Part shown: in pieces, positions 10,673-57,310 of the stretch
Position numbering within the stretch: position 1 is the stretch's first letter
How the letters are laid out: each line of letters starts with the position of its first letter
Assembly: GCF_030824455.1 (NCBI RefSeq)
Contig: NZ_JAVBXR010000010.1
Location: forward strand, 62,001-126,000
Direction: 5' to 3'
From: Desulfobulbus sp.
GTDB lineage: Bacteria > Desulfobacterota > Desulfobulbia > Desulfobulbales > Desulfobulbaceae
Length of the DNA: 64,000 bases
Made by a program: the position numbers and the translations under genes
Notes under the pieces: generated by a model
What the model saw: the letters and a program-made list of their open reading frames with translations, nothing else
What the model was told of the DNA's origin: nothing
Databases searched by the model: none

Positions 10673-12757
10673 ATGAAAGAGACGAAATACAGCATTTGCG
10701 GCATGTGCGCCGTGCGCTGTCCAGTGGCTGTGCAGGTGGAAGACGGCAAACCGGTCTGGATCGAGGGCAACAGCCATGACGGCGGCATGGGCCGCAGTCT
10801 CTGCGCCAAGGGCGGGGCCGCTTTTGCCCAGCGGGCGGACAAACAGCGGCCGACCGCGCCGCTGCTGCGCATGGGCAAACGCGGCGAGGGGCAATGGAGG
10901 GAAGCCTCCTGGGACGAGGCCTACGACTACATCACCACACGCCTGAACGCCGTCATTGCCGAACACGGCGGGCGCTCGATCATGTTTTCCGACCGCGGCG
11001 GTCCCTTTGCCGATTTGCGTCAGGCCTTTGTCAAGGCCCTGGGCTCGCCCAATTACATCAATCATGACTGCACCTGCGGCCGCAACGTCCACCACGCCTC
11101 CAAATCGGTCTACGGCCTGGGGCGCAAGGATTTTTCCTACGATTACGCCAATGCGCGCCACATTGTGCTCTTTGGCCGCAACATCACCGAGGCGCTGAAG
11201 GTCAAGGAAGTGAAAAGCTTTCTCAAGGGCGTCAAGAACGGCGCACGGGTGACCTACATCGATCCGCGCGCCTCCGTCACCGCCGGCAAGGCCACCCGGT
11301 ACTGGCAGATCAAACCGGGAACCGATTACGCCCTGCTGCTCGGCATTGCCCATTGTGTGCTCTCCAACAACTATTACGACCTTGATTTTGCTGAACGCTA
11401 CATAACCGGCCTGTCCGAATTCAAAACCTTCCTCGCCCCGTACACGCCCGTATGGGCGGCCGAAGAAACCGGCATCGCCGCCTCTGAAATCGAGGCCTTC
11501 TGCCGCGAACTGAACGAAGACCGGCCCAAGGTGATCATCCATCCCGGCTGGATGCTGGCCCGGTATCGCGATTCCTTTCACGCCTCGCGGATCATCCACA
11601 TCCTCAACGCCCTGATGGGCAGCATCGAGCAGCCCGGCGGGCTCTTTTATCCCAAAGGCCCCAAAGACGTGGGCAAGTCGGGCCTCAAAAGTCTGGCTGC
11701 GCTGGTTCCGGCGGTCAGCGAAGAGCGGGCGGACGGCTGCGGTTCCCGTTTTCCCCAGTGGGACAAAGGCGCGGGCATGCTCCAGACCGCCTACGAAGCC
11801 ATTGAGACCGGCACGCCCTATCCGGTCAAAGCCTATTTTGTCCATCGCCACAATCCCTTCATCGCCCTGCCCGACACCAACGAACAGCGGCGCATCCTGG
11901 ACAAACTCGACCTGATCGTGGCGGTGGACGTCAACTTCAGCGAAACCGCCTGGTTTGCCGACGTCATCCTGCCGGAAAACACCTTCCTGGAGCGCGACGA
12001 CATCCTGCGCACCGAAAAAGGACTGAAACCCGGTTTCGGCCGGCGACAGCAGTGCGTCAAGCCCCTGAACAACACCAAGGCCGGCTGGGAAATTTATCTG
12101 GACCTGGCCAAACGCATGGGCAAGGGCGAATATTTCCCGTTCAAATCGATTGAAGACATCTGGCAGTTCCAGTTGCAGGACACCGGGCTTTCTGTTGCCG
12201 ATTTTGACGCCCAGGGTTTTGTCAAACTGAGCGACAAGGCCCTTTGGTTTGATCGCGACAAACTCAAATTCGGCACCGAGTCGGGCAAGATCGAGATCGT
12301 CAATCCCAAATGGGAGGCCATGGGCGTGGCCTCGCTGCCGCCGTACGAGGCTCCGGTTCCGCCGCCCGAGGGCAGTTTCCGGCTGCTGTTCGGCCGCAAC
12401 GGCTACCAGGCCCACGGCCAGCATCAGAACAACCCGATCCTGTGCGAACTGCTCAACGTCAATAAACTGTGGATCAACACCGCAGCCGCTAAAAAATTGG
12501 GCGTCAAAGACGGCGATCAGGTGCGGGTCGAGTCCGGCGATGAGCAGGGCACGATAACCGCCTACGTCACCGATCTGATCCATCCCCAGGCGGTGTTCAT
12601 GCTCCACGGTTTCGGCACCGACGTGCCCGCCAAAAAAAGGTCCGTTGGCAAGGGATTGGCCGATCAGATGTTCATGCAGGGCAAGCTCAAAGAGTGGGAC
12701 AAGGCCGGCGGCGGTCTCAATCTCGCGGAAAGTTTCGTCACCGTTACCCCGGTCTAA
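10673..12757 (+). CDS. Molybdopterin (bis-MGD) oxidoreductase, PhsA/PsrA/FDH superfamily, at head of nuo operon
   Basis: A Mo/W enzyme of 694 residues. The ATG at 10673 was chosen because the Fe-S motif starts right after it; the 13 codons upstream add nothing. A 4Fe-4S motif C9-x2-C12-x3-C16-x27-C44 is followed by CAKG, whose Lys46 is the usual electron relay to the pterin. The molybdopterin domain spans about 60-430 and a dinucleotide-binding domain about 570-690. C135, in an N-x3-H-x3-C setting, is the likely Mo ligand; C133 is an alternative. There is no twin-arginine or other signal peptide, so it is cytoplasmic, unlike periplasmic polysulfide or thiosulfate reductases. No TGA (selenocysteine) interrupts the frame. 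A four-cluster ferredoxin gene follows 16 bases later, then nuoA, without any membrane anchor subunit. I infer it feeds electrons to, or takes them from, the NADH-module-less complex I. The substrate is unknown. Confidence 0.88.
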   Translation: MKETKYSICGMCAVRCPVAVQVEDGKPVWIEGNSHDGGMGRSLCAKGGAAFAQRADKQRPTAPLLRMGKRGEGQWREASWDEAYDYITTRLNAVIAEHGGRSIMFSDRGGPFADLRQAFVKALGSPNYINHDCTCGRNVHHASKSVYGLGRKDFSYDYANARHIVLFGRNITEALKVKEVKSFLKGVKNGARVTYIDPRASVTAGKATRYWQIKPGTDYALLLGIAHCVLSNNYYDLDFAERYITGLSEFKTFLAPYTPVWAAEETGIAASEIEAFCRELNEDRPKVIIHPGWMLARYRDSFHASRIIHILNALMGSIEQPGGLFYPKGPKDVGKSGLKSLAALVPAVSEERADGCGSRFPQWDKGAGMLQTAYEAIETGTPYPVKAYFVHRHNPFIALPDTNEQRRILDKLDLIVAVDVNFSETAWFADVILPENTFLERDDILRTEKGLKPGFGRRQQCVKPLNNTKAGWEIYLDLAKRMGKGEYFPFKSIEDIWQFQLQDTGLSVADFDAQGFVKLSDKALWFDRDKLKFGTESGKIEIVNPKWEAMGVASLPPYEAPVPPPEGSFRLLFGRNGYQAHGQHQNNPILCELLNVNKLWINTAAAKKLGVKDGDQVRVESGDEQGTITAYVTDLIHPQAVFMLHGFGTDVPAKKRSVGKGLADQMFMQGKLKEWDKAGGGLNLAESFVTVTPV

Positions 12758-12773
12758 TCGCAGGAGAACAGAA

Positions 12774-13277
12774 ATGAGCAAATATATCGTCACCCAGAAC
12801 GTGGCCGACTGCATTGGCTGCCGGGCCTGCGAGGTCCATTGCAAAGATAAAAACAACAGCGGCCCCGGCGCCTTTTACTGCCGGATGATCGAGGTGACAT
12901 CAAGTGCTGGTTCGTTGCCGCGCATAGACTTTGTCTACCTTGCCTGCTTTCACTGCGAAAAGGCCTGGTGCGTTGACGCCTGCCCCACCGGGGCCATGCG
13001 CCGCCGCGACAAGGACGGCATCGTCTACGTCGAGGCCAAATCCTGCGTCGGCTGCAAGGCCTGCATCACCGCCTGCCCCTGGACCGTGCCCCAGTGGAAT
13101 CCCGAAACCGGCAAGGTCGGCAAGTGCGATCTGTGCATGGACCGGATCGATGAGGGTCTGGAACCGGCCTGCGTCAGCAAATGCACCACCGGTTGTTTGA
13201 GCTTCACCACGCCGGGCCAGGCCTCGGAGTCGGCGCGTCAGGCTTTTGCCGAGCAACTGCTGCGCAACAGGCGCTGA
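12774..13277 (+). CDS. Four-cluster 4Fe-4S ferredoxin subunit (DmsB/PsrB/HycB type)
   Basis: Electron-transfer subunit of 167 residues with no signal peptide. The ATG at 12774 follows AGGAGAACAG. Sixteen cysteines arrange as four 4Fe-4S sites. The first is C13-x2-C-x2-C-x3-C, the second C-x2-C-x4-C-x3-CP near residue 60, and the third CVGCKACITACPW near residue 90. The last is C-x2-C-x11-C-x3-C near 122. This is the standard beta subunit of complex iron-sulfur molybdoenzymes. It sits 16 bases after the molybdopterin subunit and 13 bases before nuoA, so it is the natural bridge between the Mo enzyme and the peripheral arm of complex I (NuoI/NuoB). That physical coupling is inference. Confidence 0.92.
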   Translation: MSKYIVTQNVADCIGCRACEVHCKDKNNSGPGAFYCRMIEVTSSAGSLPRIDFVYLACFHCEKAWCVDACPTGAMRRRDKDGIVYVEAKSCVGCKACITACPWTVPQWNPETGKVGKCDLCMDRIDEGLEPACVSKCTTGCLSFTTPGQASESARQAFAEQLLRNRR

Positions 13278-13290
13278 GAGGAGCGCGGCC

Positions 13291-13659
13291 ATGAACGCCA
13301 TGCCCCCGGAATACCTTGGCATCTTTTTGTTGTTGATCTTCGGCGTCCTCTTTGGGGTGCTGACCCTGTTTGTGGGCCGGTTTTTCCGCCTCAGCCGGCC
13401 GTACCGGGAGAAACTGATCGCCTACGAATCGGGCAACGAACCGAGCGAAGCGCCGCGCATGCGCTTTTCGGTCAAGTTTTACCTGATCGCCATCCTGTTC
13501 GTGATCTTCGACGTTGAGGCCATTTACCTCTATCCCTGGGCCGTGAGCTACGACCGGCTCGGTCTGTTCGCCCTGGTGGAGATGCTGCTGTTCATCGCGC
13601 TGCTGCTGGTCGGCTACGTCTACGCCTGGAAAAAGGGAGTCCTGCAATGGGAGAAATAA
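13291..13659 (+). CDS. nuoA: NADH-quinone oxidoreductase subunit A
   Basis: Small membrane subunit of complex I, 122 residues, with three membrane helices (about 10-30, 65-85, 92-112). The conserved loop [20 protein letters not shown] between helices 1 and 2 and the [12 protein letters not shown] segment are typical; this loop lies near the quinone cavity. The ATG at 13291 follows GAGAGGAG. Its end overlaps nuoB by 13 bases. It opens the nuo gene run directly after the molybdopterin/ferredoxin pair. Confidence 0.96.
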
Positions 13660-14168
13660 GCGAACCGTCCATGGTCCCGCTGGAAGAGGGGGTGCGTTAC
13701 ATCCCCGGCGCCAATGCCATTCTGGGGCCGCTCAACAAACTGGTCAACTGGGGCCGGTCCGGATCGATCTGGCCGGTGACCTTTGGCCTGGCCTGCTGCG
13801 CCATCGAGATGATGGATGCAGGGGCCTCAACCAACGATCTCGACCGCTTTGGCATCCTCTTCCGCGCCAGTCCGCGTCAGGCCGACTGCATGGTGGTGGC
13901 CGGCACCCTGACCAAAAAAATGGCGCCGGTGCTGCGTCGGGTCTACGATCAGATGCCCGAGCCCCGCTATGTGCTGGCCATGGGCAGCTGCGCCTGCAGC
14001 GGTGGCGTCTTCGACACCTACGCGGTCACCCAGGGCGTGGATCAGATCATCCCGGTGGACGTGTATGTGCCCGGATGTCCGCCCCGGCCCGAGGCCCTGA
14101 TGGAAGGGTTTCTTAAATTACAGGAAAAGATCCTCAAGGAGCAGTTCCGATGGAGCAGGTGGCGATAA
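13647..14168 (+). CDS. nuoB: NADH-quinone oxidoreductase subunit B (N2 cluster)
   Basis: Peripheral-arm subunit of 173 residues carrying the terminal N2 4Fe-4S cluster that reduces quinone. The tandem cysteines C50-C51 ([10 protein letters not shown]), C115 in GSCACSGG, and C144 in VPGCPPRPE supply the ligands; an additional C117 is present. Length is normal. The start overlaps nuoA by 13 bases and the end overlaps nuoC by 19 bases, so translation is tightly coupled. Confidence 0.97.
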
Positions 14169-14737
14169 CCGAGCGGATGCGGGCCGAGTTCCCCGACGAG
14201 ATATTGAGCAGCTATTCCAACCAGGGCCAGACGGCGGTGATTGTCCGGCCCGGTCGGATTGTCGAGATGCTCCGCTGGCTGCGCGATTCCGACGATCTGC
14301 GCATGAATCATCTGCGCTCGCTGTGCGGGGTCGACAACGCCCGCCGCAAGGATCCGGGGCTGTCGCGCTTTGAGGTGGTGTACAATCTCTATTCCATCCC
14401 GTTGCGTCACGAGATTCGCCTGCGGGCCGAGGTCGGCGACAAAGACCCGGCCATCGACTCGGTGGTTGGCCTTTGGTGCGGAGCTGATTGGCTGGAACGG
14501 GAAACCTATGATCTGATGGGCATTCGCTTCAACAATCATCCCGATCTGCGTCGGGTGCTCCTGCCCGAGGATTGGGTCGGGCATCCGCTGCGCAAGGAAT
14601 ACCCGCTCAAGGGCAAGGTGGAGTGGGCCGGCATGACTGAACTGCTGGAACAGGTCAAGGAACTCGATAAATTCGGTTTTGATCCGGAAGGGCATGCGCA
14701 CGGACAGGCAGGCCCGGATCAGGAGGAGGAAGAATGA
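14150..14737 (+). CDS. nuoC: NADH-quinone oxidoreductase subunit C
   Basis: Peripheral-arm subunit of 195 residues, without cofactors, in the hydrophilic connector of complex I. Family markers are the [10 protein letters not shown] segment, the [10 protein letters not shown] strand, and the signature [29 protein letters not shown]-type stretch (about residues 124-153), followed by GHPLRKEYP. The C-terminus is a short acidic and His-rich tail. It is a separate gene, not fused to nuoD as in Escherichia coli. It overlaps nuoB by 19 bases and nuoD by 4. Confidence 0.96.
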
Positions 14738-15960
14738 CCTCGCCCACGCAACAGACTCTTGAAGTTCCGGTGGCCGACGGCGAAGGCGAACGCTATTCGC
14801 TGCGCATGGGGCCACAACATCCGGCCACCCACGGCGTGCTGCGGGTCGATCTTGAACTGGACGGCGAAACCATCATCGAGTGCAAACCCCAGGTGGGCTA
14901 CCTCCATCGCGGCTTTGAAAAGCTGGCGGAAAACCGCACCTACGCCCAAGCCCTGATCCTCACCGACCGGTTGGACTACATCGCGGCCATGGCCAACAAC
15001 GTCGGCTACTGTTTGGCGGTGGAAAAGCTGCTGGGGATTTCCGTGCCGCTGCGGGCCAAGTACATCCGTACCTTGGTGTGCGAAATGTCGCGCCTCTGCT
15101 CGCATCTGTTGTGGCTGGCCACCCATGCCCTGGACATCGGGGCGATGACCGTCTTTTTGTACTGTTTCCGCGAACGCGAGATTCTGCTCGATCTGTTCGA
15201 GGAGTTGTGCGGGGCGCGGCTGACCTTCTCCTATCCCCGGATCGGCGGGGTGCGTCAGGACGTCACCTCCCATTTTATCAATGAATTGCAGCGGTTCCTC
15301 GACATCTTCCCGTCCAAAATCGAAGAATACGAAACCCTGATCGACACCAACCGCATCTGGCTTAAACGCACCGTCGGCGTCGGCAAACTCAGCGGCGAAG
15401 AAGCCCTGGCCCTTGGCCTCACCGGCGCCTGCCTGCGCGGTTCCGGGGTTGACTACGACCTGCGCAAACATCAGCCCTACGACGCCTACGATCAGGTGGA
15501 GTTCGAGGTGCCGCTGGGCAGCGACGGCGACATCTACGCCCGCTACCGTTGCCGCATGGAAGAGATGCACCAGTCGGCGCGCATCATCCAGCAGTGCATC
15601 GACCAATTGCCGCCCGGCCCGATCATCGGCCCGGACGCCCCGGATCTGGTCATGCCCAACAAAATTCCCGCCCGGATCGAGGCCGACAGCAGCGCCTACG
15701 GCACGGGCCTGATTCGTCTGATTCGCGACCGCACCCCCTATCTTACCGGCGACGTCTATCTGGCCACCGAGGTTCCCAAAGGCGAGCTGGGCTTTTATTT
15801 CATTTCCGACGGCAACAACCGACCCTACCGGATGCACATCCGCTCCCCATCGTTCATTCACATCGGGGCCTTGGCCGCCATTGCCAAGGGCGAGTTGATC
15901 GCCGATCTGATCGCCAACATCGGCAGCCTGGACGTGGTTCTGGGCGAATCCGACCGGTGA
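14734..15960 (+). CDS. nuoD: NADH-quinone oxidoreductase subunit D
   Basis: Peripheral-arm subunit of 408 residues that forms the quinone pocket with NuoB; evolutionarily a [NiFe]-hydrogenase large subunit without the metal site. Markers are MGPQHPATHGVLR near residue 23, the GYLHRGFEK segment with the quinone-ligating His, TRIGGVRQD-like IGGVRQDV near 170, and the C-terminal RSPSFIHIGAL and DVVLGESDR end. It overlaps nuoC by four bases. Normally nuoE or nuoH follows; here an AT-rich unrelated gene intervenes. Confidence 0.97.
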   Translation: MTSPTQQTLEVPVADGEGERYSLRMGPQHPATHGVLRVDLELDGETIIECKPQVGYLHRGFEKLAENRTYAQALILTDRLDYIAAMANNVGYCLAVEKLLGISVPLRAKYIRTLVCEMSRLCSHLLWLATHALDIGAMTVFLYCFREREILLDLFEELCGARLTFSYPRIGGVRQDVTSHFINELQRFLDIFPSKIEEYETLIDTNRIWLKRTVGVGKLSGEEALALGLTGACLRGSGVDYDLRKHQPYDAYDQVEFEVPLGSDGDIYARYRCRMEEMHQSARIIQQCIDQLPPGPIIGPDAPDLVMPNKIPARIEADSSAYGTGLIRLIRDRTPYLTGDVYLATEVPKGELGFYFISDGNNRPYRMHIRSPSFIHIGALAAIAKGELIADLIANIGSLDVVLGESDR

Positions 15961-15977
15961 AGGTTGTAAATTTTTTG

Positions 15978-16538
15978 ATGAGTGAAGCAACAATGAGTGA
16001 AACAGCTCTCATGATCAGTAGTTTTGCTTTATCATTCACTATTTTCAGCTTTTGGTGGATGAATTGGAGAAAAGGTTCTCTACTCGTGAGCAGTGTTCGA
16101 ACCTATGCTGCTGGGAAATTGGGGAATAAACTATTTGTCCGACTGCCTTTAATATTTTTTAATCCAGGTGCATTGCCAGTTCTGGTAGAAAATCTTCGTC
16201 TTACTTTTCTTAATATCGATAATACACGTTCTTTCTTGTTTTTTAATGCAACTGTAGAAAAATTAAAACCTGATGAAAAAATAAAAAATGACCTTGCTAC
16301 TCCATTTGCTGTTCATAAAGGGCAAGCACTGTTGCAAATCTGTGAATTTGTGCAGATGCCTTCGAGCTTTAAGTTTGAGTTGAAAAATTATGACTTCATT
16401 CTTGAAGCTCAGGTAGGAGGAGAAACCGATTGGAAAGAAATCAAGACGTTTCAACTCAAAATTCGGCCGTCACAGGTTCATGATTTGAATACCGCTTTTA
16501 TAATTCATGACAACGATCCTCAATTAAATCAACAATAA
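15978..16538 (+). CDS. Unrecognised single-pass membrane protein inserted in the nuo operon (AT-rich)
   Basis: I do not recognise this 186-residue protein. A hydrophobic helix at about residues 8-28 (ending FSFWWMNW) is followed by RKGS, so the positive-inside rule places the C-terminal domain in the cytoplasm. That domain, of about 155 residues, is beta-rich with alternating hydrophobic residues and few charged helices, perhaps an Ig-like or sandwich fold. Starts are possible at the ATG at 15978, the ATG at 15993, or a GTG at 15957 overlapping the nuoD stop codon; none has a good ribosome site. Base composition is unlike its neighbours: 16141-16320 holds only 55 G+C in 180 bases, against about 55% in nuoD. 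The codon use is A/T-ending. It splits nuoD from nuoH and is followed by terminator-like hairpins, which suggests a recent insertion. Confidence 0.75.
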   Translation: MSEATMSETALMISSFALSFTIFSFWWMNWRKGSLLVSSVRTYAAGKLGNKLFVRLPLIFFNPGALPVLVENLRLTFLNIDNTRSFLFFNATVEKLKPDEKIKNDLATPFAVHKGQALLQICEFVQMPSSFKFELKNYDFILEAQVGGETDWKEIKTFQLKIRPSQVHDLNTAFIIHDNDPQLNQQ

Positions 16539-16557
16539 CCAACTGACTCATTGTATT

Positions 16558-16608
16558 ATTACGAAGTAATGATTCAATAAAGTGTGCAACCATTCAAAAT
16601 GGTTTTTT
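16558..16608 (+). terminator. Two hairpins, the second terminator-like, between the AT-rich gene and nuoH
   Basis: ATTAC-GAA-GTAAT (16558-16570) is a short hairpin. AACCATT-CAA-AATGGTT (16588-16604) is a 7-bp hairpin followed by TTTT and lies 17 bases before nuoH. The second has the form of a weak intrinsic terminator inside an otherwise continuous nuo gene run, so it may reduce or regulate expression of nuoH-N. Confidence 0.5.
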
Positions 16609-16624
16609 AAGCAGAAGGAACCCT

Positions 16625-17593
16625 ATGAATATCCTGCTCCTGCTCGTGTGGATCATCATCCTCTTTGCCGTGGTCATGCTCCATGTGGCCTATGCAACCT
16701 ATTTTGAGCGCAAAATCATCGGCCACATGCAGGTGCGCCTTGGGCCGATGCGGGTGGGCTGGCACGGATTGCTCCAGCCCATCGCCGACGGGGTCAAATC
16801 CTTTTTCAAGGAAGACATTATCCCGGCCAACGCCGACCGGCCGACCTTCCTGGCCGCGCCGATCATCTGCCTGGTTGCGATGATGACCTCGCTGGCGGTG
16901 CTGCCCTTTGCCAAGGGCTGGGTACTGGCCGACATCAACATCGGCCTGCTGTTCATCTTTGCCATGAGTTCGCTGTCCAGCTACGGGGTGGTGCTGGCCG
17001 GCTGGGCCTCAAACTCGAAATTCAGCTTTCTCGGCGGCCTGCGCTCCATGGCCCAGGTGATCAGCTACGAAATTGCCATGGGGCTGAGCCTGGTGGGGGT
17101 GATGCTGCTCTCCGGTTCGCTCAACCTCAGCGAAATCGTCGAGGCCCAGGGCAACTCCATCCTGGGGATGTATCTCATTCCCCAGTGCATTGGTTTTTTT
17201 GTCTTTTTTATCAGCATGCTGGCCGAGACCAACCGGGTGCCCTTTGATCTGCCCGAGGCGGAAACCGAGCTGGTTTCCGGCTACTGCACCGAATACAGCG
17301 GCATGCGCTACGCCATCTTTTTCATGGCCGAGTACATCGGCATGATGGTCATGGCCTCCATCGGCACGGTCTGTTTTCTTGGCGGCTGGAACGGGCCTTT
17401 TGCGGTTCCCTTTTTTCCGCCGCTGTGGTTCGTGCTCAAGATCTACCTGTTTATGTTCATTTTTATCTGGATCCGGGCCACCCTGCCGCGCTACCGCTAC
17501 GATCAGCTGATGGATCTGGGCTGGAAGCTGCTCATTCCGCTGGCGCTGGCCAACATCGTCCTCACCGCCTGCCTCAAGGCGATGATCGGGTAA
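16625..17593 (+). CDS. nuoH: NADH-quinone oxidoreductase subunit H
   Basis: Membrane subunit of 322 residues with about eight helices, joining the peripheral arm to the proton-pumping arm and lining the quinone tunnel. Markers include TYFERKIIGHMQVRLGPMRVG near residue 26, the acidic loop AETNRVPFDLPEAETELVSGY near residue 205 (E/D-rich quinone and proton channel), and RATLPRYRYDQLM near the end. AAGGAA precedes the ATG. It is the first gene after the AT-rich insertion. Confidence 0.97.
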   Translation: MNILLLLVWIIILFAVVMLHVAYATYFERKIIGHMQVRLGPMRVGWHGLLQPIADGVKSFFKEDIIPANADRPTFLAAPIICLVAMMTSLAVLPFAKGWVLADINIGLLFIFAMSSLSSYGVVLAGWASNSKFSFLGGLRSMAQVISYEIAMGLSLVGVMLLSGSLNLSEIVEAQGNSILGMYLIPQCIGFFVFFISMLAETNRVPFDLPEAETELVSGYCTEYSGMRYAIFFMAEYIGMMVMASIGTVCFLGGWNGPFAVPFFPPLWFVLKIYLFMFIFIWIRATLPRYRYDQLMDLGWKLLIPLALANIVLTACLKAMIG

Positions 17594-17618
17594 GGGGAGG
17601 GGAGAGCTCTCAAAAAAT

Positions 17619-18257
17619 ATGCAGATTCAATACAAACCCAAACGGGGCTGGTTGGCGACCATCTTCCAGGCCGAGATCGTGCAGGGCATGACCCTGACTC
17701 TGAAGCGACTGTTTTCCAAGCCGATCACCCGCCAGTATCCCGATGAAAAACCCAAGATACGGCCCGGTTTTCGCGGCCAGCATGCCCTAGTGCGCGATCC
17801 CGAGACCGGCGATTGCAAGTGCATCGGTTGCATGCGCTGCGCCATGGCCTGCCCGTCGCGCTGCATCCGCATCCGTTCGCACAAGGACAAGGAACCGGGC
17901 AGCCGCCGGGTGATCGACTGCTACCGGATTGATTCCCTGCGCTGCGTCTACTGCGGCTACTGCGAGGAGGTCTGCCCGGTCAACGCCATCGTCCTCACCG
18001 AGGTCTATGAGTACGGCTCATACACCCGCCCCTCGCTCTATTTCACCAAAGAGCAATTGCTGGCCAATTGGGATCGGTTCGCAGCCGAATTAGACACGCC
18101 GGTCGAAGAATACGTCAATCCCTTCTGGCGGCCGCGCGGCCTGTCCGAACAGGATCTGCCCGCGCCCAAACGGTTGCCGGTGTCGCCCGAATGGAGCGGC
18201 GAGCAGCAGGTGGTGGGCAGAAAATGGCGGCAGCACCATACGCCGGAACAATCCTGA
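17619..18257 (+). CDS. nuoI: NADH-quinone oxidoreductase subunit I (2x 4Fe-4S)
   Basis: Peripheral-arm ferredoxin subunit of 212 residues. Two 4Fe-4S sites, CIGCMRCAMACPSRC and CVYCGYCEEVCPVN, lie near residues 68 and 108 and hold clusters N6a and N6b, which pass electrons to NuoB. In canonical complex I these receive electrons from NuoG. As nuoG is missing here, this subunit is the likely docking point for the upstream polyferredoxin or for a soluble ferredoxin/flavodoxin. The C-terminal tail of about 60 residues is Pro- and Arg-rich. Confidence 0.96.
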   Translation: MQIQYKPKRGWLATIFQAEIVQGMTLTLKRLFSKPITRQYPDEKPKIRPGFRGQHALVRDPETGDCKCIGCMRCAMACPSRCIRIRSHKDKEPGSRRVIDCYRIDSLRCVYCGYCEEVCPVNAIVLTEVYEYGSYTRPSLYFTKEQLLANWDRFAAELDTPVEEYVNPFWRPRGLSEQDLPAPKRLPVSPEWSGEQQVVGRKWRQHHTPEQS

Positions 18258-18268
18258 GGAGGGAGTGC

Positions 18269-18853
18269 ATGTTTATCCAGATCTTTTTTGGCTACTGCGC
18301 GCTGATGATTACGCTAAGCGGCATCCTGGCCATCAGCCTGCGCAACCCGGTGCACTGCGTGCTCATGGTGCTGGTGCTGTTTTTTCACATGGCCGGGCTC
18401 TATCTGACCCTCAACGCCGAGTTTCTGGCGGCGGTGCAGATCATCGTCTACGCCGGGGCCATCCTGGTGCTCTATCTTTTTGTCCTCTTTCTGGTCAGCC
18501 TGCGCGAGGAACTGCACCTGGACGCCTTTATCGCCAACCCCTGGATCGGGCGAGTCATTGCCGGCGGTCTGGCCGCAGCGCTGCTCTACGTGATTCCGGC
18601 CTTTACCCTGGGCGAAAAAGGGGTCTGGTCGGTGGAAGCGATCAAGCAAGTCACCCACACCAAGGCCCTGGGCCAGGAGATGTATTCCACCTATCTGTTG
18701 CCTTTTGAGATCGGCGGCCTGATCCTGCTGGTGGCCCTGATCGGCGGTTTGGCGCTGGCGCGACGCGACGAGGGCGCAACCGAAGCAAACGCAGCGGACG
18801 AGGCGACAACCCCGCTCCCAGCCCAGTCCGACCACAAGGAGGCGGCGCAATGA
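18269..18853 (+). CDS. nuoJ: NADH-quinone oxidoreductase subunit J
   Basis: Membrane subunit of 194 residues with five predicted helices. Family markers are the NPVHCVLMVLVLFFHMAGLYL helix, the LNAEFLAAVQIIVYAGAILVL-like third helix (about residues 48-70, with the pi-bulge seen in structures), and a helix ending in ALARRD. A charged, alanine-rich cytoplasmic tail of about 30 residues follows. The ATG at 18269 follows GAGGAGGGAG. The stop codon overlaps nuoK by four bases. Confidence 0.95.
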   Translation: MFIQIFFGYCALMITLSGILAISLRNPVHCVLMVLVLFFHMAGLYLTLNAEFLAAVQIIVYAGAILVLYLFVLFLVSLREELHLDAFIANPWIGRVIAGGLAAALLYVIPAFTLGEKGVWSVEAIKQVTHTKALGQEMYSTYLLPFEIGGLILLVALIGGLALARRDEGATEANAADEATTPLPAQSDHKEAAQ

Positions 18854-19152
18854 TTCCCCTTTCCTGGTACATGGCTCTGTCCGCCATCCTGTTCTGCATC
18901 GGCGTCTGCGGATTTCTCACCCGGCGCAATGTGATCATCATGTTTTTATCGCTTGAGCTGATGCTCAACGGCGTCAACCTCAATCTGGTGGCGCTCAGCC
19001 ATTTCCTGGAGAGTCTGCGCGGTCAGGCCTTCACCTTCTTCATCATCACCGTGGCTGCAGCCGAGGCCGCCATCGGACTCGGCATTGCCATTGCCCTGTA
19101 CCGAAGCCGGCGCAGCGTTCACGTCGACACCGTCAACCAACTCAAAGGATGA
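18850..19152 (+). CDS. nuoK: NADH-quinone oxidoreductase subunit K
   Basis: Membrane subunit of 100 residues with three helices, related to MrpC. The conserved buried glutamates needed for proton translocation are present in FLSLELMLNGVNL (helix 2) and in AAAEAAIGLGIA (helix 3). Overlaps nuoJ and nuoL by four bases each, so the three are translationally coupled. Confidence 0.97.
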   Translation: MIPLSWYMALSAILFCIGVCGFLTRRNVIIMFLSLELMLNGVNLNLVALSHFLESLRGQAFTFFIITVAAAEAAIGLGIAIALYRSRRSVHVDTVNQLKG

Positions 19153-21080
19153 ACACCATGCCGGCCTCCTTGCTTGCCATCCCGCTTCTGCCGCTGGCCT
19201 CCTTTGTCCTGACCCTGCTGCTGGGCAAACGCTGGGGAACCAGGGCGCACTGGCTGCCGATCATCACGGTTCTGCTCTCGTTTTGCTGCGCCTTGGCCGC
19301 CTTTTTCCGAGTGCGCTCCGGCGAGATCGTCAATCAGGATCTCTACACCTGGATCGCCTCGGGCAACCTGACTGTCTCGGTGGGTTTTCTGGTGGATCAG
19401 CTCACCTCGGTGATGCTGATCGTGGTCACCAGCGTCAGCTCCCTGGTGCACATCTATTCGGTGGGCTACATGAAGGGCGAAGACGGCTATTACCGCTTTT
19501 TCGCCTACCTGAGCCTGTTTACCTTTTCCATGCTCATGCTGGTGCTGGGCAACAACTTCCTGCAGCTCTTTTTCGGCTGGGAAGCGGTGGGGCTGTCGTC
19601 CTACCTGCTGATCGGCTTTTACTACCAAAAGCAATCCGCCTCGGATGCGGGGAAAAAGGCCTTTATCGTCAATAGGTTCGGCGATTTCGGCTTTATCCTT
19701 GGCCTGTTTTTGATCTTCACCCAGTTTGGCAGCCTCCATTATCATGAGGTGTTCAGCCGGGTGGACGGCATTGCCGGCCAGACTGTCTCCCTGTTCGGCG
19801 GTCAGGCAAGTCTGGCCACGGTGATTGCCCTGTTGCTGTTTTGCGGGGCGATCGGCAAGTCAGCGCAGATTCCGCTGCACGTCTGGCTGCCCGACGCCAT
19901 GGAAGGGCCGACCCCGGTCAGCGCCCTGATCCACGCCGCCACCATGGTCACTGCCGGCGTATTCCTGGTGGCCCGCTGCAACCCGATTTTTGAGCTCTCC
20001 CACTTTGCCCTCAACCTGATCACCGTGCTGGGCGCAATCACCGCCCTGTTTGCCGCCACCATCGCCCTGGTGCAGACCGACATCAAACGGGTGGTCGCCT
20101 ATTCCACGGTCAGTCAGTTGGCCTACATGTTCATCGGTTGCGGGGTCGGGGCCTATTCCGCCGGCATTTTCCATCTGTTCACCCATGCTTTTTTCAAGGC
20201 GCTGCTCTTTCTCGGCTGCGGCTCGGTGATCCTGGGCATGCACCACGAACAGGACGTCCGCTCCATGGGCGGCCTGAAAGACAAAATGCCAATCACCTAC
20301 TGGACCTTTCTCCTCGCCTCGCTCTCCATTTCCGGCGTTCCCGGACTGGCCGGATTTTTCAGCAAGGACGAGATCCTGCTCATGGCCTTTAACACCGAAC
20401 TCGGGGCCGGCAAGTTTGCCTGGGCCATCGGCGTGCTGGTGGCCTTCATGACCGCCTTCTACTCCTTCCGCCTCTTTTTCCTCATCTTTCACGGCGAATT
20501 TCGCGGCACGGACCATCAGCGCGACCATCTCCACGAATCCCCGGCGGTGGTCACCCTGCCGCTGATTCTGCTGGCCGTCGGAGCCGTGGGCGCAGGCTGG
20601 TTCGGCGTACCCAAGATCATCGGCGGCGACAATCACTGGGCCCATTTTCTTGAGCCGGTGCTCGGCCATCCCCATGTCCATGTTTCCGGGCTGACCGAGG
20701 GGCTGCTGATGCTCGGCTCCATCCTGGCTGGAGTCTGCGGCATTGGCTTGGCCTTTTACATGTACCGGCTCAAGCCGCATCTGCCCGCAATCGTGGCCGA
20801 GCGTCTGGCCTTTTGTCATCGCCTCCTGCTCAATAAATACTACATCGACGAGATCTACATCGGCGGCATCGTCAAACCGACCCTGGCGTTCAGTCGCGGG
20901 GTGCTGCTGCGGGTGGTGGATCTGGCCTGCATAGACGGCGTGGTCAACGGCGTTCCCAGGGCCATCGGCGTTTTCTCCGAAAAATTGCGTCTCATCCAGG
21001 ACGGGCAGGTCTCGCATTATCTTGCCTGGATGGGCGGCGGCGCCGTGGCGCTGGTTGTCGTCCTCTTGGTCAGCATCTAA
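19149..21080 (+). CDS. nuoL: NADH-quinone oxidoreductase subunit L (antiporter-like)
   Basis: Largest proton-pumping subunit of complex I, 643 residues, related to MrpA. The conserved GWEAVGLSSYLLIGFYY segment (with the key Glu) is near residue 140. The ALIHAATMVTAGVFLV lysine/histidine channel segment is near 256, and the FKALLFLGCGSVILGMHHEQD segment is near 344. The C-terminal part, from about 500, includes the long lateral amphipathic helix region. Length is normal. It overlaps nuoK by four bases; nuoM starts 30 bases later. Confidence 0.97.
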   Translation: MNTMPASLLAIPLLPLASFVLTLLLGKRWGTRAHWLPIITVLLSFCCALAAFFRVRSGEIVNQDLYTWIASGNLTVSVGFLVDQLTSVMLIVVTSVSSLVHIYSVGYMKGEDGYYRFFAYLSLFTFSMLMLVLGNNFLQLFFGWEAVGLSSYLLIGFYYQKQSASDAGKKAFIVNRFGDFGFILGLFLIFTQFGSLHYHEVFSRVDGIAGQTVSLFGGQASLATVIALLLFCGAIGKSAQIPLHVWLPDAMEGPTPVSALIHAATMVTAGVFLVARCNPIFELSHFALNLITVLGAITALFAATIALVQTDIKRVVAYSTVSQLAYMFIGCGVGAYSAGIFHLFTHAFFKALLFLGCGSVILGMHHEQDVRSMGGLKDKMPITYWTFLLASLSISGVPGLAGFFSKDEILLMAFNTELGAGKFAWAIGVLVAFMTAFYSFRLFFLIFHGEFRGTDHQRDHLHESPAVVTLPLILLAVGAVGAGWFGVPKIIGGDNHWAHFLEPVLGHPHVHVSGLTEGLLMLGSILAGVCGIGLAFYMYRLKPHLPAIVAERLAFCHRLLLNKYYIDEIYIGGIVKPTLAFSRGVLLRVVDLACIDGVVNGVPRAIGVFSEKLRLIQDGQVSHYLAWMGGGAVALVVVLLVSI

Positions 21081-21110
21081 CCCGAAACCTTACCTGCGGA
21101 AGCGTCTTCG

Positions 21111-22622
21111 ATGTCCATACCTCTTTTGAGCACCCTGATTTTTTTCCCGATTCTCGGCGGTCTTTCGCTCTTGATAGTGCCCAGGCAGCAGACCGCAACC
21201 ATCAAGATCATGGCCCTGATCGTCAGTTTGATCGAGTTCGCGCTCTGCGCGCCGATCTTCCTGCTGTTCGACAAGACCACCTTTGCGATGCAGTTTGTCG
21301 AAGTCCACCCTTGGATCAAGGCGCTGCACATCAACTATGCCCTGGGCATCGACGGCATCAGCGTGCTCTTCCTCCTGCTCACCGCGCTGATCATCGTGCT
21401 GTCCATCCTGGTGTCCTGGCAATCCATCACCACCAAAGTGCAGGAATTCTTCATCAGCCTGCTGCTGCTCGAAGGGGCGATGATGGGGGTGTTCTGCGCC
21501 ACCGACTTTTTCCTCTTCTACATCTTTTGGGAGGCCATGCTGATTCCGATGTTTCTGATCATCGGCGTCTGGGGCGGGCCGAACCGGATTTACGCCACGG
21601 TCAAGTTTTTCCTTTTCACCCTGGTCGGCAGTCTGCTGATGCTGGTGGGCGTCATCCTGCTCTATCAGAACGGCGGGCACACCTTTGACATCCTCAAACT
21701 GGCCGGGCAGCCCTATTCGCTCAAACTGCAGTTGATTCTGTTCTGGGCCTTCTTTGCCGCCTTTGCGGTCAAGGTGCCGATGTGGCCCGTGCACACCTGG
21801 TTGCCCGACGCCCACACCGAGGCCCCGGCCGCCGGTTCGGTCATCCTCGCCGGGGTGCTGATCAAGATGGGGGCTTACGGATTCCTCCGCTTTTCCCTGC
21901 CCATCCTGCCCGACGCCACCCGCGAGATGATGCTGCCGATGCTGGTGCTGTCGGTGATCGCCATTGTCTACGGGGCCATTATCTGCCTGGCCCAGACCGA
22001 TCTCAAGCGCTTGATCGCCTACAGTTCGGTCAGCCACATGGGGTTTGTCACCCTGGGGATGTTCGCCCTTAACCAGCATGGGTTGGAAGGGGCCATTTTG
22101 CAGATGATTAACCACGGCGTGGTCACCGGCGCTCTGTTCCTTGCTATCGGCATGGTTTATGAGCGGACCCACACCCGCGAGATTACAGCCTACGGCGGAC
22201 TGGCCACCACCATGCCGGTCTTTGCCGGCTTTTTTCTCCTTTTCACCCTAGCTGCGGTCGGTCTGCCGGGAACCAACGGTTTTATCGGCGAATTTCTGAT
22301 CCTTTTGGGCAGTTTTGAGCGCGCCCCCTGGACGGCGGTGGTTGCCGCTTCCGGCCTGATCCTGGGCGCTTGGTACATGCTGTGGCTCTACCAGCGGATC
22401 TTTTTCAACGAGGTCAACGAGGCCATGCACGGGTTGAAACCGCTTGATCTGCGCGAAATTCTCACCCTGCTGCCGATGGTGCTGCTGATCTTCTGGATCG
22501 GCCTCTACCCCAACGCCCTGCTCGGATTCCTCCACGTCTCGGTGGGCCATCTGCTTGATCAGGTCAACGGCCTGGGGCTGGCCGGTCAGGCGGCGCCGCT
22601 TACTCTTGCCCTGCATCCTTGA
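21111..22622 (+). CDS. nuoM: NADH-quinone oxidoreductase subunit M (antiporter-like)
   Basis: Proton-pumping subunit of 503 residues, related to MrpD. Markers: FWEAMLIPMFLIIGVWGG near residue 140 with the conserved Glu, the VPMWPVHTWLPDAHTEAPAAGS stretch near 224, LAQTDLKRLIAYSSVSHMG near 296, and GLPGTNGFIGEFLIL near 384. About 14 membrane helices are expected. nuoN follows after 49 bases. Confidence 0.97.
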   Translation: MSIPLLSTLIFFPILGGLSLLIVPRQQTATIKIMALIVSLIEFALCAPIFLLFDKTTFAMQFVEVHPWIKALHINYALGIDGISVLFLLLTALIIVLSILVSWQSITTKVQEFFISLLLLEGAMMGVFCATDFFLFYIFWEAMLIPMFLIIGVWGGPNRIYATVKFFLFTLVGSLLMLVGVILLYQNGGHTFDILKLAGQPYSLKLQLILFWAFFAAFAVKVPMWPVHTWLPDAHTEAPAAGSVILAGVLIKMGAYGFLRFSLPILPDATREMMLPMLVLSVIAIVYGAIICLAQTDLKRLIAYSSVSHMGFVTLGMFALNQHGLEGAILQMINHGVVTGALFLAIGMVYERTHTREITAYGGLATTMPVFAGFFLLFTLAAVGLPGTNGFIGEFLILLGSFERAPWTAVVAASGLILGAWYMLWLYQRIFFNEVNEAMHGLKPLDLREILTLLPMVLLIFWIGLYPNALLGFLHVSVGHLLDQVNGLGLAGQAAPLTLALHP

Positions 22623-22671
22623 GCATTGAACACCCCATGAACACTTTCGCCAACGTGCAAAAGGAGCGATC

Positions 22672-24117
22672 ATGATTGCATCTGTGGCCGTCAACTGGAC
22701 CGCCCTGGAACCTGTCCTTCCGGAACTGCTGCTGATCGGCGTCGCCGTGCTGCTGATCGGTTTTGATCTGTTTTTGCCCCGGCAGCGGCAACTGCTGCCC
22801 TGGTTGACCGTGATCGGCTGCCTCACCGCCCTGGCCATGGTTTTGGGGGCGCGGCCGGCCATCGGCTTTGGCGGCATGCTGCTGGCCGACGGTTACGCCA
22901 TGGTGTTCAAGAGCATCTGCCTGGGAACGGTGATTCTGACCACCTTGATGAGCGAGCGTTTTTGCGCCGTTATCAACCTGCGCCAGGGCGAATATTACAG
23001 CCTGACCCTCCTTTCCCTGGTCGGCATGCTGCTCATGGCCGCCGCCGGCGATCTGATGACCCTGTATCTCGGTTTGGAATTGATGGCTCTGCCGATCTAC
23101 GCCCTGGTGGGGCTGCACAAGCGCGACGGCCGCACCAGCGAGGCGGCGATCAAATATTTTCTCATGGGCGGGTTCGCTTCAGCCTTGCTCTTGTTTGGCA
23201 TGTCGCTGGTGTACGGGTTGACCGGGACCACCGAGATCGCCCGGATTGCGGAAGAGATCACTGCCCGGCAGTTGACCGCCAACCCGGCCCTGCTGCTTGC
23301 TCTGGGCCTGTTGCTGACCGGCTTCGGTTTCAAGGTGGCGGCGGCGCCGTTTCACCTCTGGACTCCGGACGTCTACGAGGGCGCGCCGACCATCCTCACC
23401 GCCTTTATGTCGGTGGCGCCCAAGGCGGCCGGGTTTGCCGTGTTTGGCCGGGTGCTTTACCTTGGCCTGCCGGCGCTTCATGACCAGTGGGGACCTATCC
23501 TGGCGGTGCTGGCGCTGTTGACCATGGCGGTGGGCAACATCACCGCGCTGTGCCAGCAGAGCCTCAAGCGGATGTTGGCCTATTCCTCCATTGCCCATGC
23601 GGGGTACGCCCTGCTCGGCCTGCTTACCGGAACCATTGAAGGTCTGGCGGCCGCCATGACCTATCTGGTGATGTATCTGTTCATGAACATCGGGGCCTTT
23701 GCCGTGCTAATGCTGCTGGCCGCGCCCGGACGCGCCGGCGAGTCGCTGGACGACTGCAAAGGGCTCGCCGCCCGCAATCCCATGGCCGCCGCCCTGATGC
23801 TGGTCTTTCTGTTCTCCCTCACCGGCATCCCGCCCACCGGCGGGTTCATTGGCAAGTTCTATCTGCTCAAAGCGGCCTTTGCCGCCGGGTACACCGCCAC
23901 CGTGGTAGGCGCGGTGCTGTTCAGCGCCATTTCCGCCTATTTTTACCTGCGGGTGGTTCGCTACATGTACATGGACGAGCCGCGGCAGACCGACGTCCTG
24001 CACGTTTCCCCCGGCATGAGCGCCGCCCTCGGCCTGTGTCTGCTCGGGGTGCTGGGCCTTGGCGTGTTCCCCGGTTCGCTCCTTGATTGGACCCTGGCCG
24101 CCCTGTCGGGCATGTAA
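22672..24117 (+). CDS. nuoN: NADH-quinone oxidoreductase subunit N (antiporter-like)
   Basis: Proton-pumping subunit of 481 residues. Markers: YLGLELMALPIYALVGLHKRD near residue 127 with the conserved Glu, a GFGFKVAAAPFHLWTPDVYEG segment near 220, QQSLKRMLAYSSIAHAGYALLG near 297, and GIPPTGGFIGKFYLLKAAF near 386. AAAGGAG precedes the ATG. It ends the complex I gene set: A, B, C, D, H, I, J, K, L, M and N are all present and E, F and G are not found in this window. Confidence 0.97.
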   Translation: MIASVAVNWTALEPVLPELLLIGVAVLLIGFDLFLPRQRQLLPWLTVIGCLTALAMVLGARPAIGFGGMLLADGYAMVFKSICLGTVILTTLMSERFCAVINLRQGEYYSLTLLSLVGMLLMAAAGDLMTLYLGLELMALPIYALVGLHKRDGRTSEAAIKYFLMGGFASALLLFGMSLVYGLTGTTEIARIAEEITARQLTANPALLLALGLLLTGFGFKVAAAPFHLWTPDVYEGAPTILTAFMSVAPKAAGFAVFGRVLYLGLPALHDQWGPILAVLALLTMAVGNITALCQQSLKRMLAYSSIAHAGYALLGLLTGTIEGLAAAMTYLVMYLFMNIGAFAVLMLLAAPGRAGESLDDCKGLAARNPMAAALMLVFLFSLTGIPPTGGFIGKFYLLKAAFAAGYTATVVGAVLFSAISAYFYLRVVRYMYMDEPRQTDVLHVSPGMSAALGLCLLGVLGLGVFPGSLLDWTLAALSGM

Positions 24118-29307: not shown

Positions 29308-31188
29308 ATGGAATACGAGAAAGACTGGCAGGAAAAATACAGCGACATGATCGCCACTTCAACCCAGGCTCTGAGTCACCTCAAGCCTGGGCAGCGGGTG
29401 TTCATCGGCACGGGTTGCGGCGCGCCGCAGGAGCTGATCGCGGCCATGACCAAACGGTCCCGGTCGCTGACCAATGTTGAGATTATCCAGCTGATCACCA
29501 AAGGCGAGGCCCCCTATGCCGACAAAAAGATGTCGGACAGCTTTGCGATCAACGCCTTTTTCATCAGTTCCAACATCCGCGACGTGATCCAGGAAGGATT
29601 TGGCGACTACACCCCGATCCTGCTCTCCGACGTGCCCAAGCTGTTTGATTCCGGCAGCCTGCCGATCGACGTGGCCCTGATCCAGGTGACCCCGCCGGAC
29701 ACCCGCGGCCGGGTGAGTCTGGGGATTTCGGTGGACATTGTCCGCAGCGCCACCGAGAACGCCTCGCTGGTCATTGCCGAGGTCAATCCCAACATGCCCT
29801 GGACCCACGGCGACACCCTGGTCGACGTCTTTGACCTCGACATCCTGGTGCCGGTGGACCGACCGATTCTGGAACGGGAGATTGATCCGCCCAACCCGAT
29901 CAGCCGCAAGATCGCCCAAACCGCCGCCGCCCTGATTCCCAACGGTTCCACCATTGAACTGGGGTTGGGCCGGGTGCCCGGCTACGGCCGCATCCCCCAG
30001 GTGGTGATGGAGTTTCTGCTCGACCGCAAGGACATCGGCTTCCACACCGAGATGATCTCCGACACCATCATCCCCCTGATCGAATCCGGGGCCGTGACCG
30101 GAGCCTGCAAGACCATCGACAAGGGCAAGATCACCGCCAGCTTCTGTATGGGCACCAAGCGGCTCTACGACTACATCCACGACAACCCCCTGTTCAGCTT
30201 CCGGCCCACGGAATACATCAACGACGCCAACGTCATCGGCAAACACAAGCGGATGGTGGCGGTCAACATGGCCCTGGAGATCGACCTCACCGGCCAGGTC
30301 TGTTCCGATTCGGTGGGCGGCCGCTTCTATTCCGGCATCGGCGGCCAGATCGATTTCAATCGCGGCGCCGCCAAGTCCGAGAGCGGCCGGGCAATCATCA
30401 CCCTGCCGTCGCTCAACAAGGAGGGCGACCAGTCGCGCATTGTCTGCACCCTGCAGCCCGGTTCCGGCGTGGTCATCAACCGGGCCAGCGTCCACTATGT
30501 GGTCACCGAACACGGGGTGGCCTATCTGCACGGCAAGTCGATCCAGGAGCGGGTCATGGCCTTGATCTCCATTGCCCATCCTGATTTTCGCGAGCAGCTG
30601 TTCCGCGAGGCGGTGGCCGCCAAATACCTGCGCCCCGGTCTGGCCCGCTTTGGCAACCGGTTCACCATTCCGGTGGAGGAATCGATCCGCGCCTCCCTGC
30701 TCCTGGAAGACGGCCTGGAGGTCGACTTCCGCTCGATCAAGCCCACCGACGAGCCGCACATGCGCGACCTGATCTACAATCTCAGCCAGGAGACCATCTA
30801 CTACCGGTTCATGAGCCGGCAGCAGCACTTCACCACCCGCCAGATCCAGGATTTCGTCTACATCGATCATCGCCGCGACGTGGCGGTGGTGGGCACCGTG
30901 CCCGAGGCCCACGGCGAGCAGATCATCGCGGTCGGCACCTACTACCTCAATGAAAAGACCAACCTGGCCGAGGTTGCCTTTGTGGTCCGCGACGGGTGGC
31001 AGAACAAGGGCTTGGGCACCTTCCTTTTCCAGCATCTGATCAAGATCGCCAAACGCAACGGCATCTCTGGCTTCACCGCCGAGGTCCTGCGCGAGAACGA
31101 ACGGATGCAGAACGTGTTCAACCATTCCGGGCTTAAGGTGAGCAGCCAGCTGGAAGAGGGCGTGTTCAGTTTTCACATGGAATTTTAG
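29308..31188 (+). CDS. Acetyl-CoA hydrolase/CoA-transferase fused to a GNAT acetyltransferase domain
   Basis: A two-domain protein of 626 residues. About residues 10-445 form a class I CoA-transferase/hydrolase of the Ach1/4-hydroxybutyrate-CoA-transferase family (FIGTGCGAPQELI near 32; GLGRVPGYGRIPQVV near 213; the acid-rich IGGQIDFNRGAAKSESGRAI near 340). From about 475 a GNAT domain follows (FRSIKPTDEPHMRDLIYNLS; acetyl-CoA loop VRDGWQNKGLGTFLFQHL near 564; ENERMQNVFNHSGL). GNAT domains of this type resemble AcuA/Pat protein acetylases. It is the last of the acu-like run and starts 41 bases after the ligase with a good AAGGGG site. The combination implies a CoA-transferase that also acetylates a protein, perhaps the neighbouring ligase; that target is inferred. 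Confidence 0.9.
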   Translation: MEYEKDWQEKYSDMIATSTQALSHLKPGQRVFIGTGCGAPQELIAAMTKRSRSLTNVEIIQLITKGEAPYADKKMSDSFAINAFFISSNIRDVIQEGFGDYTPILLSDVPKLFDSGSLPIDVALIQVTPPDTRGRVSLGISVDIVRSATENASLVIAEVNPNMPWTHGDTLVDVFDLDILVPVDRPILEREIDPPNPISRKIAQTAAALIPNGSTIELGLGRVPGYGRIPQVVMEFLLDRKDIGFHTEMISDTIIPLIESGAVTGACKTIDKGKITASFCMGTKRLYDYIHDNPLFSFRPTEYINDANVIGKHKRMVAVNMALEIDLTGQVCSDSVGGRFYSGIGGQIDFNRGAAKSESGRAIITLPSLNKEGDQSRIVCTLQPGSGVVINRASVHYVVTEHGVAYLHGKSIQERVMALISIAHPDFREQLFREAVAAKYLRPGLARFGNRFTIPVEESIRASLLLEDGLEVDFRSIKPTDEPHMRDLIYNLSQETIYYRFMSRQQHFTTRQIQDFVYIDHRRDVAVVGTVPEAHGEQIIAVGTYYLNEKTNLAEVAFVVRDGWQNKGLGTFLFQHLIKIAKRNGISGFTAEVLRENERMQNVFNHSGLKVSSQLEEGVFSFHMEF

Positions 31189-57274: not shown

Positions 57275-57310
57275 GTCTGGCCTTTGGTGGAGGTTTTTTC
57301 ATGCGAACAT

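Follow-up and report, generated by a model that had tools for sequence, protein, structure and literature searches.

We analysed a 64,000-nucleotide stretch of a Desulfobulbus sp. genome (Desulfobacterota; NCBI RefSeq assembly GCF_030824455.1, contig NZ_JAVBXR010000010.1, positions 62,001 to 126,000), hereafter the window, which carries a complex I (nuo) operon headed by two further redox genes (Table 1). Eleven nuo genes lie at 13291-24117 in the order A, B, C, D, H, I, J, K, L, M, N, so that the core set of an 11-subunit complex I is complete. The operon lacks nuoE, nuoF and nuoG, and with them the make-up of a 14-subunit NADH:quinone oxidoreductase. Directly upstream are the genes for a molybdenum- or tungsten-dependent oxidoreductase (subunit A) and an iron-sulfur protein (subunit B), with spacers of 16 bases between A and B and 13 bases between B and nuoA. 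No NrfD-type membrane anchor (subunit C) was detected among the operon proteins scanned with Pfam and NCBIfam; the rest of the genome was not searched. This layout, including the absence of an anchor gene, agrees with the original prediction, which had been made from the sequence alone.

Table 1. Genes of the operon in the window, with the basis for each assignment (bisPGD, bis(pyranopterin guanine dinucleotide); aa, amino acids; Tat, twin-arginine translocation; ORF, open reading frame).
Feature	Position	Strand	Basis
Subunit A, Mo/W-bisPGD oxidoreductase, PsrA/PhsA-like, 694 aa, no Tat signal	10673..12757	+	Pfam Molybdop_Fe4S4, Molybdopterin, Molydop_binding; NCBIfam best match PhsA
Subunit B, four-cluster [4Fe-4S] protein, PsrB/DmsB-like, 167 aa, proposed adapter to NuoI	12774..13277	+	Pfam Fer4_11; 16 invariant Cys; B tree
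nuoA	13291..13659	+	NCBIfam
nuoB	13647..14168	+	NCBIfam; N2 Cys residues by eye
nuoC	14150..14737	+	NCBIfam
nuoD	14734..15960	+	NCBIfam
AT-rich ORF, 186 aa	15978..16538	+	No Pfam or NCBIfam match
nuoH	16625..17593	+	NCBIfam
nuoI, 212 aa, two 4Fe-4S motifs by eye	17619..18257	+	NCBIfam
nuoJ	18269..18853	+	NCBIfam (scanned as 18263-18853)
nuoK	18850..19152	+	Pfam
nuoL	19149..21080	+	Pfam
nuoM	21111..22622	+	Pfam
nuoN	22672..24117	+	Pfam

Subunit A is PsrA/PhsA-like, this being its closest family and its closest fold. Among NCBIfam models, PhsA ranked first (536.4 bits), followed by formate dehydrogenase alpha (TIGR01591; 220.9 bits against a cut-off of 666) and NuoG (TIGR01973; 47.1 bits against a cut-off of 470). 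On the score of the NuoG model we discarded the idea that A is a NuoG relic. The closest Protein Data Bank chain by sequence was the polysulfide reductase subunit PsrA of Thermus (2vpw_A, 363 bits), ahead of acetylene hydratase (181 bits), ArrA (152 bits) and the best formate dehydrogenase chains (135-136 bits). An AlphaFold model of A (mean predicted local distance difference test score of 92.6) found its best fold match in the same structure (2vpw; template modeling score of 0.90). The original prediction had offered formate or an aldehyde as possible substrates, with A as a dehydrogenase driving complex I. Such an enzyme would share the superfamily of A and its lack of a Tat signal, and the formate dehydrogenase model does match, at 221 bits. 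Nevertheless, the PhsA and PsrA matches are far stronger, and relatives of A have sulfite-exporter-like neighbors (below). On the NCBIfam and Protein Data Bank scores we dropped this identity as a first choice, and we consider it very improbable.

The cysteines that the original prediction had assigned to A are present: those of a 4Fe-4S cluster at positions 9, 12, 16 and 44, together with a CAKG motif, and Cys135, which is invariant in all 210 aligned sequences (window included). HMMER pairs Cys133 of A with Cys173 of Thermus PsrA, which we take to be the Mo ligand. A gapless shift by hand pairs Cys135 instead, and Cys133 is poorly kept (62 of 210 sequences). A therefore has both marks of the catalytic subunit of complex iron-sulfur molybdoenzymes such as PsrABC and PhsABC, namely an N-terminal 4Fe-4S site and a cysteine Mo ligand. 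The Tat export typical of these enzymes finds no counterpart here, as a simple Tat pattern occurs in 0 of 209 relatives of A and none is seen by eye in the window protein. A is thus expected in the cytoplasm, the side that NuoI faces. Subunit B is of the four-[4Fe-4S]-cluster type found in the same enzymes. It has 18 cysteines, and the 16 that would bind the clusters, by which the original prediction had called it a polyferredoxin, are kept in 148 of 148 aligned B sequences (47 of the window's nuo-linked type and 101 not nuo-linked, with other nuo-linked B outside this set).

The block is conserved among relatives. A match to A was found in 21 of 23 genomes of the genus, those without one being G020 (74% complete) and G004 (99% complete). 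The A region was fetched from 17 genus genomes, and in every one of them A is followed by B, nuoA and then more nuo genes for as long as the contig continues; three others (G005, G013 and G016) have A as fragments only and stand outside this count. Among the best 80 of 208 matches, the closest named relatives at the locus are Desulfobulbus and Desulfobulbaceae contigs. Within the same 80, the named contigs with the block are L051-L079, except L062, which ends at A, plus L088, several of them being the same contigs as the genus loci; their names include Desulfobulbus, Desulfocapsa and Candidatus Desulfobulbus rimicarensis. Cultured strains with the block on a public contig are Desulfobulbus elongatus DSM 2908 (L079), D. 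rhabdoformis DSM 8777 (L061) and D. alkaliphilus DSM 24258 (L056). More widely, relatives of A occur in 77 of 146 genomes of an order sample (E-value of 1e-130 or better) and 101 of 395 genomes of a phylum sample, and 52 were found among 200 genomes of the Thermodesulfovibrio class (E-value of 1e-90, more distant paralogues included). Window-type nuoB (E-value of 1e-72 or better) is present in 23 of the 146 order-sample genomes, 11 of which, counting the window, belong to the window's genus. In 22 of these 23, window included, B and A lie directly upstream.

We pooled 223 distinct A-like sequences and, after dropping 14 that were fragments or less than 41% identical, classified 209 (the window uncounted) by the genes downstream. 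Seventy-two were linked to nuo, 27 to NuoF/E/G-like genes and 98 to neither, and 12 were cut by a contig end. The nuo-linked sequences are spread over Desulfobacterota and Nitrospirota, and recurrence across two phyla indicates that the block did not arise by chance. Thus, both the co-occurrence of A with nuo genes lacking nuoEFG and the conserved neighborhood that the original prediction had proposed to look for are found. In the phylum sample alone, 111 of 112 rows were used (one of 34% identity was omitted, and five duplicate loci were counted as nuo-linked), giving 23 nuo-linked (window included), 22 NuoF/E/G-linked, 61 with neither and 5 cut. Note that 'neither' can hide nuo genes elsewhere, as at L260, with a nuoN-like gene upstream of A, and at L250, L253 and L254, with nuo genes on the opposite strand.

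Phylogenies of the two subunits reveal that B follows nuo and that A has a different history. In the B tree, the window-type nuo-linked sequences fall into one 20-row clade (support 100/100), in which 19 rows are nuo-linked; in the free tree, L292, which is not nuo-linked and sits on a long branch, falls inside this clade. The clade includes six loci (L130, L132, L135, L307, L308 and L312) whose B and NuoB are 64-74% and 77-88% identical to those of the window, against only 42-51% for A. The B data are compatible (p = 0.12) with a single clade made up of these six loci and the core rows. Eight positions distinguish nuo-type from free B (cut-offs of 85% versus 15%), four of them in the C-terminal stretch. 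The A tree was built from 62 representatives and 6 outgroup rows, and L308 and L312 are not among the representatives. In it, L130, L132 and L135 group with free-standing A from their own order, and the neighbor of L307 is a free-standing A of its own family. Forcing L130, L132 and L135, a group picked after the identities were known, into the window's A clade cost 256 log-likelihood units (approximately unbiased test, p = 8e-52). The exchange at L307 is indicated by starred branches of a quick tree that has some long branches, and by the identity values. The gap between A and B, from mechanically assigned starts, is 58-130 bases in the six exchanged loci; at other loci it is mostly -4 to 24 bases, apart from 42 in L216 and 191 in L068. 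These sequence patterns are most simply explained if B goes with complex I as a fixed adapter and A is exchangeable. On this account A was replaced at least once, and probably twice. Separately, at the nuo-linked loci L216-L219, two four-cluster ferredoxin matches lie between A and nuoA.

Two flavoprotein queries were compared with loci that have 2 kb present downstream: 22 of 80 'neither' loci and all 18 NuoF/E/G-type loci match one of them. By Pfam, one query is GltD-like and the other is NuoF fused to a GltD-like part; since the latter query (L266) contains a NuoF-like part, the 18 matches alone do not prove a GltD part. Given these neighborhood types and flavoprotein matches, A and B look like a module with interchangeable partners, either complex I or soluble NAD(P)-type flavoproteins. 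A NuoF-GltD-like fusion or a GltD-like flavoprotein comes after the A and B pairs at L266 and L297, which look like forms of the Mo module linked to NAD(P). One alternative is that complex I takes its electrons from free ferredoxin and that A and B form a soluble thiosulfate reductase that is merely co-transcribed. Ferredoxin input has been suggested for nuo sets without nuoEFG (PMC3608642), and A and B without nuo are common, some of them with flavoprotein genes. On the other hand, B tracks nuo rather than A, the pairing with window-type nuoB is nearly constant in the order sample, and the flavoprotein genes that adjoin the pair in other lineages suggest that A and B usually have a dedicated electron partner. 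We regard this alternative as rather unlikely.

The same genome contains other complex I genes. On contig C66, genes of the nuoA, B, CD, E, F, G, H, I, J, K, L and M types stand in one row (the stretch read stops before any nuoN, and nuoK and nuoM come from search matches). This is an ordinary NADH-type complex I. Because C66 supplies nuoE, nuoF and nuoG, the window complex is a second machine and not the rescue of a cell without NADH input. The idea that the genome had lost that input was dismissed on the C66 operon and on the presence of C66-type NuoG in 19 of 23 genus genomes. The original prediction that A and B replace the NADH module therefore holds in part: they are the likely input of the window complex, in view of its near-constant pairing and the tie of B to nuo, but they do not stand in for the NADH input of the cell. 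A third nuo set lies on contig C95 (L025, G000:C95:10000-29999), with no nuoE/F/G or A and B match in the stretch read. Genes resembling NuoB, NuoCD, NuoL and NuoH at low identity on another contig (L026, G000:C27) may belong to an energy-converting hydrogenase.

Sulfur-related genes and published expression data lend partial support to a sulfur compound as the substrate. Of 190 loci with 1.2 kb or more available upstream, 83 have a TauE/SafE sulfite-exporter-like gene no further than 6 kb from A, including a genus relative (L037) in which such a gene is just upstream of A, and 5 of 10 of the neighboring proteins tested matched Pfam PF01925. None was found at 40 control loci of other Mo enzymes, a zero that may partly reflect distant TauE sequences, as these loci are largely from other phyla. 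In Desulfolithobacter dissulfuricans, the tags for PhsA-1 (GF1_30490), PhsB-1 (GF1_30500), a Nuo subunit (GF1_30510) and NuoB (GF1_30520) run consecutively (PMC9751629). The two Nuo proteins are among 36 detected only under thiosulfate disproportionation, as are two Nuo subunits with other tags (31140 and 31220); PhsA-1 was slightly more abundant under that condition and PhsB-1 was detected in both conditions (PMC9751629). The authors call A a thiosulfate reductase-type protein and doubt Phs as a major player; they remark on the missing C subunit, and the available text does not mention the neighboring nuo genes (PMC9751629). Genome G103 has A, B, nuoA and nuoB in the window order and a second, free-standing A and B pair. 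By eye, genes resembling YedE and TusA can be recognised six or seven genes downstream of nuoN. The tags of the published YTD cluster (30690-30730; PMC9751629) leave seven genes between if nuo continues from 30510. As gene order and YedE/TusA spacing fit the tags, G103 appears to be this D. dissulfuricans strain or a close relative, and we infer that GF1_30510 and GF1_30520 belong to an operon of this type. In the Desulfolithobacter-like genome, YedE-, TusA- and DsrE-like genes are seen by eye shortly past nuoN (L340, 9720-12384), resembling the published YTD cluster. In Ca. D. rimicarensis, phsAB transcripts rank next after those of aprAB and sat, and the transcript figure lists NuoABCDHIJKLM and a TauE/SafE permease (PMC7117923). 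Its contigs carry one nuo-linked A and B pair (L072) and one without nuo within 11.9 kb (L080). The sulfur-type substrate of the original prediction is thus supported in part, by family, by the TauE/SafE neighbors of relatives and by published proteomics.

We propose, with moderate confidence, that the products of the 13 genes assemble into a single membrane machine, in which an 11-subunit complex I is fed by a PsrAB/PhsAB-type pair that likely acts on thiosulfate. The cytoplasmic pair would take the place of NuoEFG as the electron input. Electrons would pass along the Mo site of A, the A cluster, the four B clusters, N6a and N6b of NuoI, N2 of NuoB and menaquinone, with NuoHLMN coupling their flow to proton movement. 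B would dock on NuoI, and complex I would replace the quinone-binding PhsC/PsrC anchor, making the enzyme a menaquinone:sulfur-oxyanion oxidoreductase coupled to protons. The substrate would most likely be a sulfur oxyanion, thiosulfate first (thiosulfate + 2e- -> sulfide + sulfite).

Direction is a matter of energetics. The couple of thiosulfate with sulfide and sulfite lies at about -400 mV, and the sulfite oxidation couple lies at about -516 mV. The potential of menaquinone-8 is -70 mV (PMC9751629). Given this difference, the reductive direction needs complex I to run in reverse, spending proton motive force. Thiosulfate reduction by menaquinol would be uphill by about 330 mV, a cost that four protons per two electrons could cover. 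Periplasmic PhsABC is thought, from work on Salmonella, to meet the same uphill problem through the proton motive force. In reverse flow, menaquinol might be fed by sulfite oxidation via adenosine 5'-phosphosulfate (APS) reductase and Qmo, and its electrons lifted to about -400 mV. A proton-motive-force-driven menaquinol:thiosulfate reductase could then account for the missing uphill step in thiosulfate disproportionation, with complex I serving as a general dock that exchanges Mo subunits via a fixed ferredoxin-like adapter. We offer this extension tentatively, and it may well prove wrong.

The opposite direction would start from sulfite, or sulfide plus sulfite, as electron donor with complex I pumping forward; it is easier on thermodynamic grounds and is a serious rival. 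It could share the docking proposed above with the opposite chemistry, A and B being a cytoplasmic oxidase of sulfite or another low-potential sulfur compound and complex I running forward, its usual direction, to pass electrons to menaquinone and pump protons. A and B would then be the sulfite oxidoreductase of disproportionators for which a gene has been lacking. SoeABC, a polysulfide reductase-like sulfite oxidase, is a precedent, and the lack of a Tat signal in A would suit the role. The TauE/SafE neighbors of relatives are in keeping with it too, although they cannot separate the two directions, because thiosulfate reduction yields sulfite as well. No sulfite oxidoreductase gene is reported for Ca. 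D. rimicarensis, which bears the block (PMC7117923). Nevertheless, the best family and structural matches of A are PhsA and PsrA, and the proteomic study names it as a thiosulfate reductase-type protein (PMC9751629). We consider the sulfite-oxidizing version of the machine unlikely.

Several observations weigh against a thiosulfate-linked machine built from A, B and complex I. A scores below the cut-off of the PhsA equivalog model (NF012032; 536.4 versus 694 bits). Nearly half of its relatives (98 of 209) have no nuo or NuoF/E/G-like gene downstream, and mapping the nuo label onto the A tree takes 10 or more changes, so the linkage has been repeatedly gained or lost. G004, a genome of the window's genus, keeps nuoA-N (L341, G004:C1:1583000-1602000) without A, B or C66-type NuoG; the complex can therefore work otherwise, which counts against A and B being indispensable and fits an input of free ferredoxin. 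TauE/SafE genes are no commoner at nuo-linked loci (22 of 63) than at loci with neither type of gene (45 of 91; NuoF-type, 10 of 26; cut, 6 of 10), and none stands beside the window genes. Finally, a nuo set without nuoEFG, which may lack A and B, rises in Desulfurivibrio during sulfur disproportionation (PMC12142623).

Parts of this arrangement have been described before. The original prediction put the complex forward as a candidate undescribed one. 'Undescribed' is too strong, since a cluster of this kind, THER_0567-0582 of Thermodesulfovibrio sp. N1, was published in 2016 together with the proposal of a coupling to sulfur compounds (PMC5165239). That cluster likewise unites a Mo subunit A, an Fe-S subunit B and nuo genes without nuoEFG (PMC5165239), and A and B directly upstream of such a nuo set, as in N1, are what we find in the window. 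The layout is also present in loci of our Thermodesulfovibrio class sample (L316 and others). The window differs in belonging to Desulfobacterota, in its A, which is 44-53% identical to nuo-linked A of that class sample, in having no TauE/SafE gene beside the operon, and in its nuo order (A, B, C, D, H, I, J, K, whereas L316 has B, D, I, A, C, H, J, K). PhsABC and PsrABC share with the window the A and B subunits, the conserved cysteine at the place of the Mo ligand, the four-cluster B and the fold of A; unlike them, the window has complex I genes in its operon in place of an NrfD-type C, and its A lacks a Tat signal. The 11-subunit complex I of the Desulfitobacterium type (PMC11238625) has the same nuoABCDHIJKLMN set without nuoEFG, whereas the window encodes a dedicated redox pair alongside. 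PhsAB without PhsC in Desulfobulbaceae (PMC13047784, PMC9751629) probably represents the same A and B pairs as in the window; both reports note the missing C, and their available text makes no tie to adjacent nuo genes. Nuo sets without nuoEFG are known from Desulfobulbus propionicus and others (PMC3608642) and from Thermosulfurimonas dismutans (PMC4911364). Desulfocapsa sulfexigens has a 13-tag 'NADH hydrogenase' cluster (PMC3739170), whose size could correspond to 11 nuo genes together with A and B. Mo oxidoreductases of disproportionators are treated, in the available text of two reports, without a link to nuo (PMC12998232, PMC8780430). Our literature search, which left most subscription journals outside its coverage, found no report uniting these observations. 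What is new here is the breadth of the arrangement, the evidence for an adapter and for exchange, and the proteomic link; the layout and the sulfur-coupling idea were already known.

Other features of the window are peripheral to the complex. The AT-rich open reading frame between nuoD and nuoH, overlooked in the original prediction, has a G+C content of 36% versus about 60% for the operon, belongs to no Pfam or NCBIfam family and has no homologue in the loci compared. It is probably a recent insertion, and its composition and lack of homologues ruled it out as a substitute for NuoEFG. By eye, its product has a hydrophobic N-terminal stretch. Genes of the feoA and feoB types lie upstream of A on the opposite strand. 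Apparent propionate/methylmalonyl-CoA pathway genes are seen by eye at 56285-62278 on the minus strand, as expected for Desulfobulbus.

The electron donor of 11-subunit complex I-like enzymes has been called an open question (PMC11238625), and the quinone-binding PhsC has been noted as missing in Desulfobulbaceae (PMC13047784, PMC9751629). For this group, one gene block would answer both questions. If the enzyme works reductively, running backwards would be the normal job of this complex I, and sulfur disproportionation would gain a concrete machine for its uphill step. If our proposal is true, sulfur chemistry would be tied to the membrane energy supply in sulfate reducers such as Desulfobulbus.

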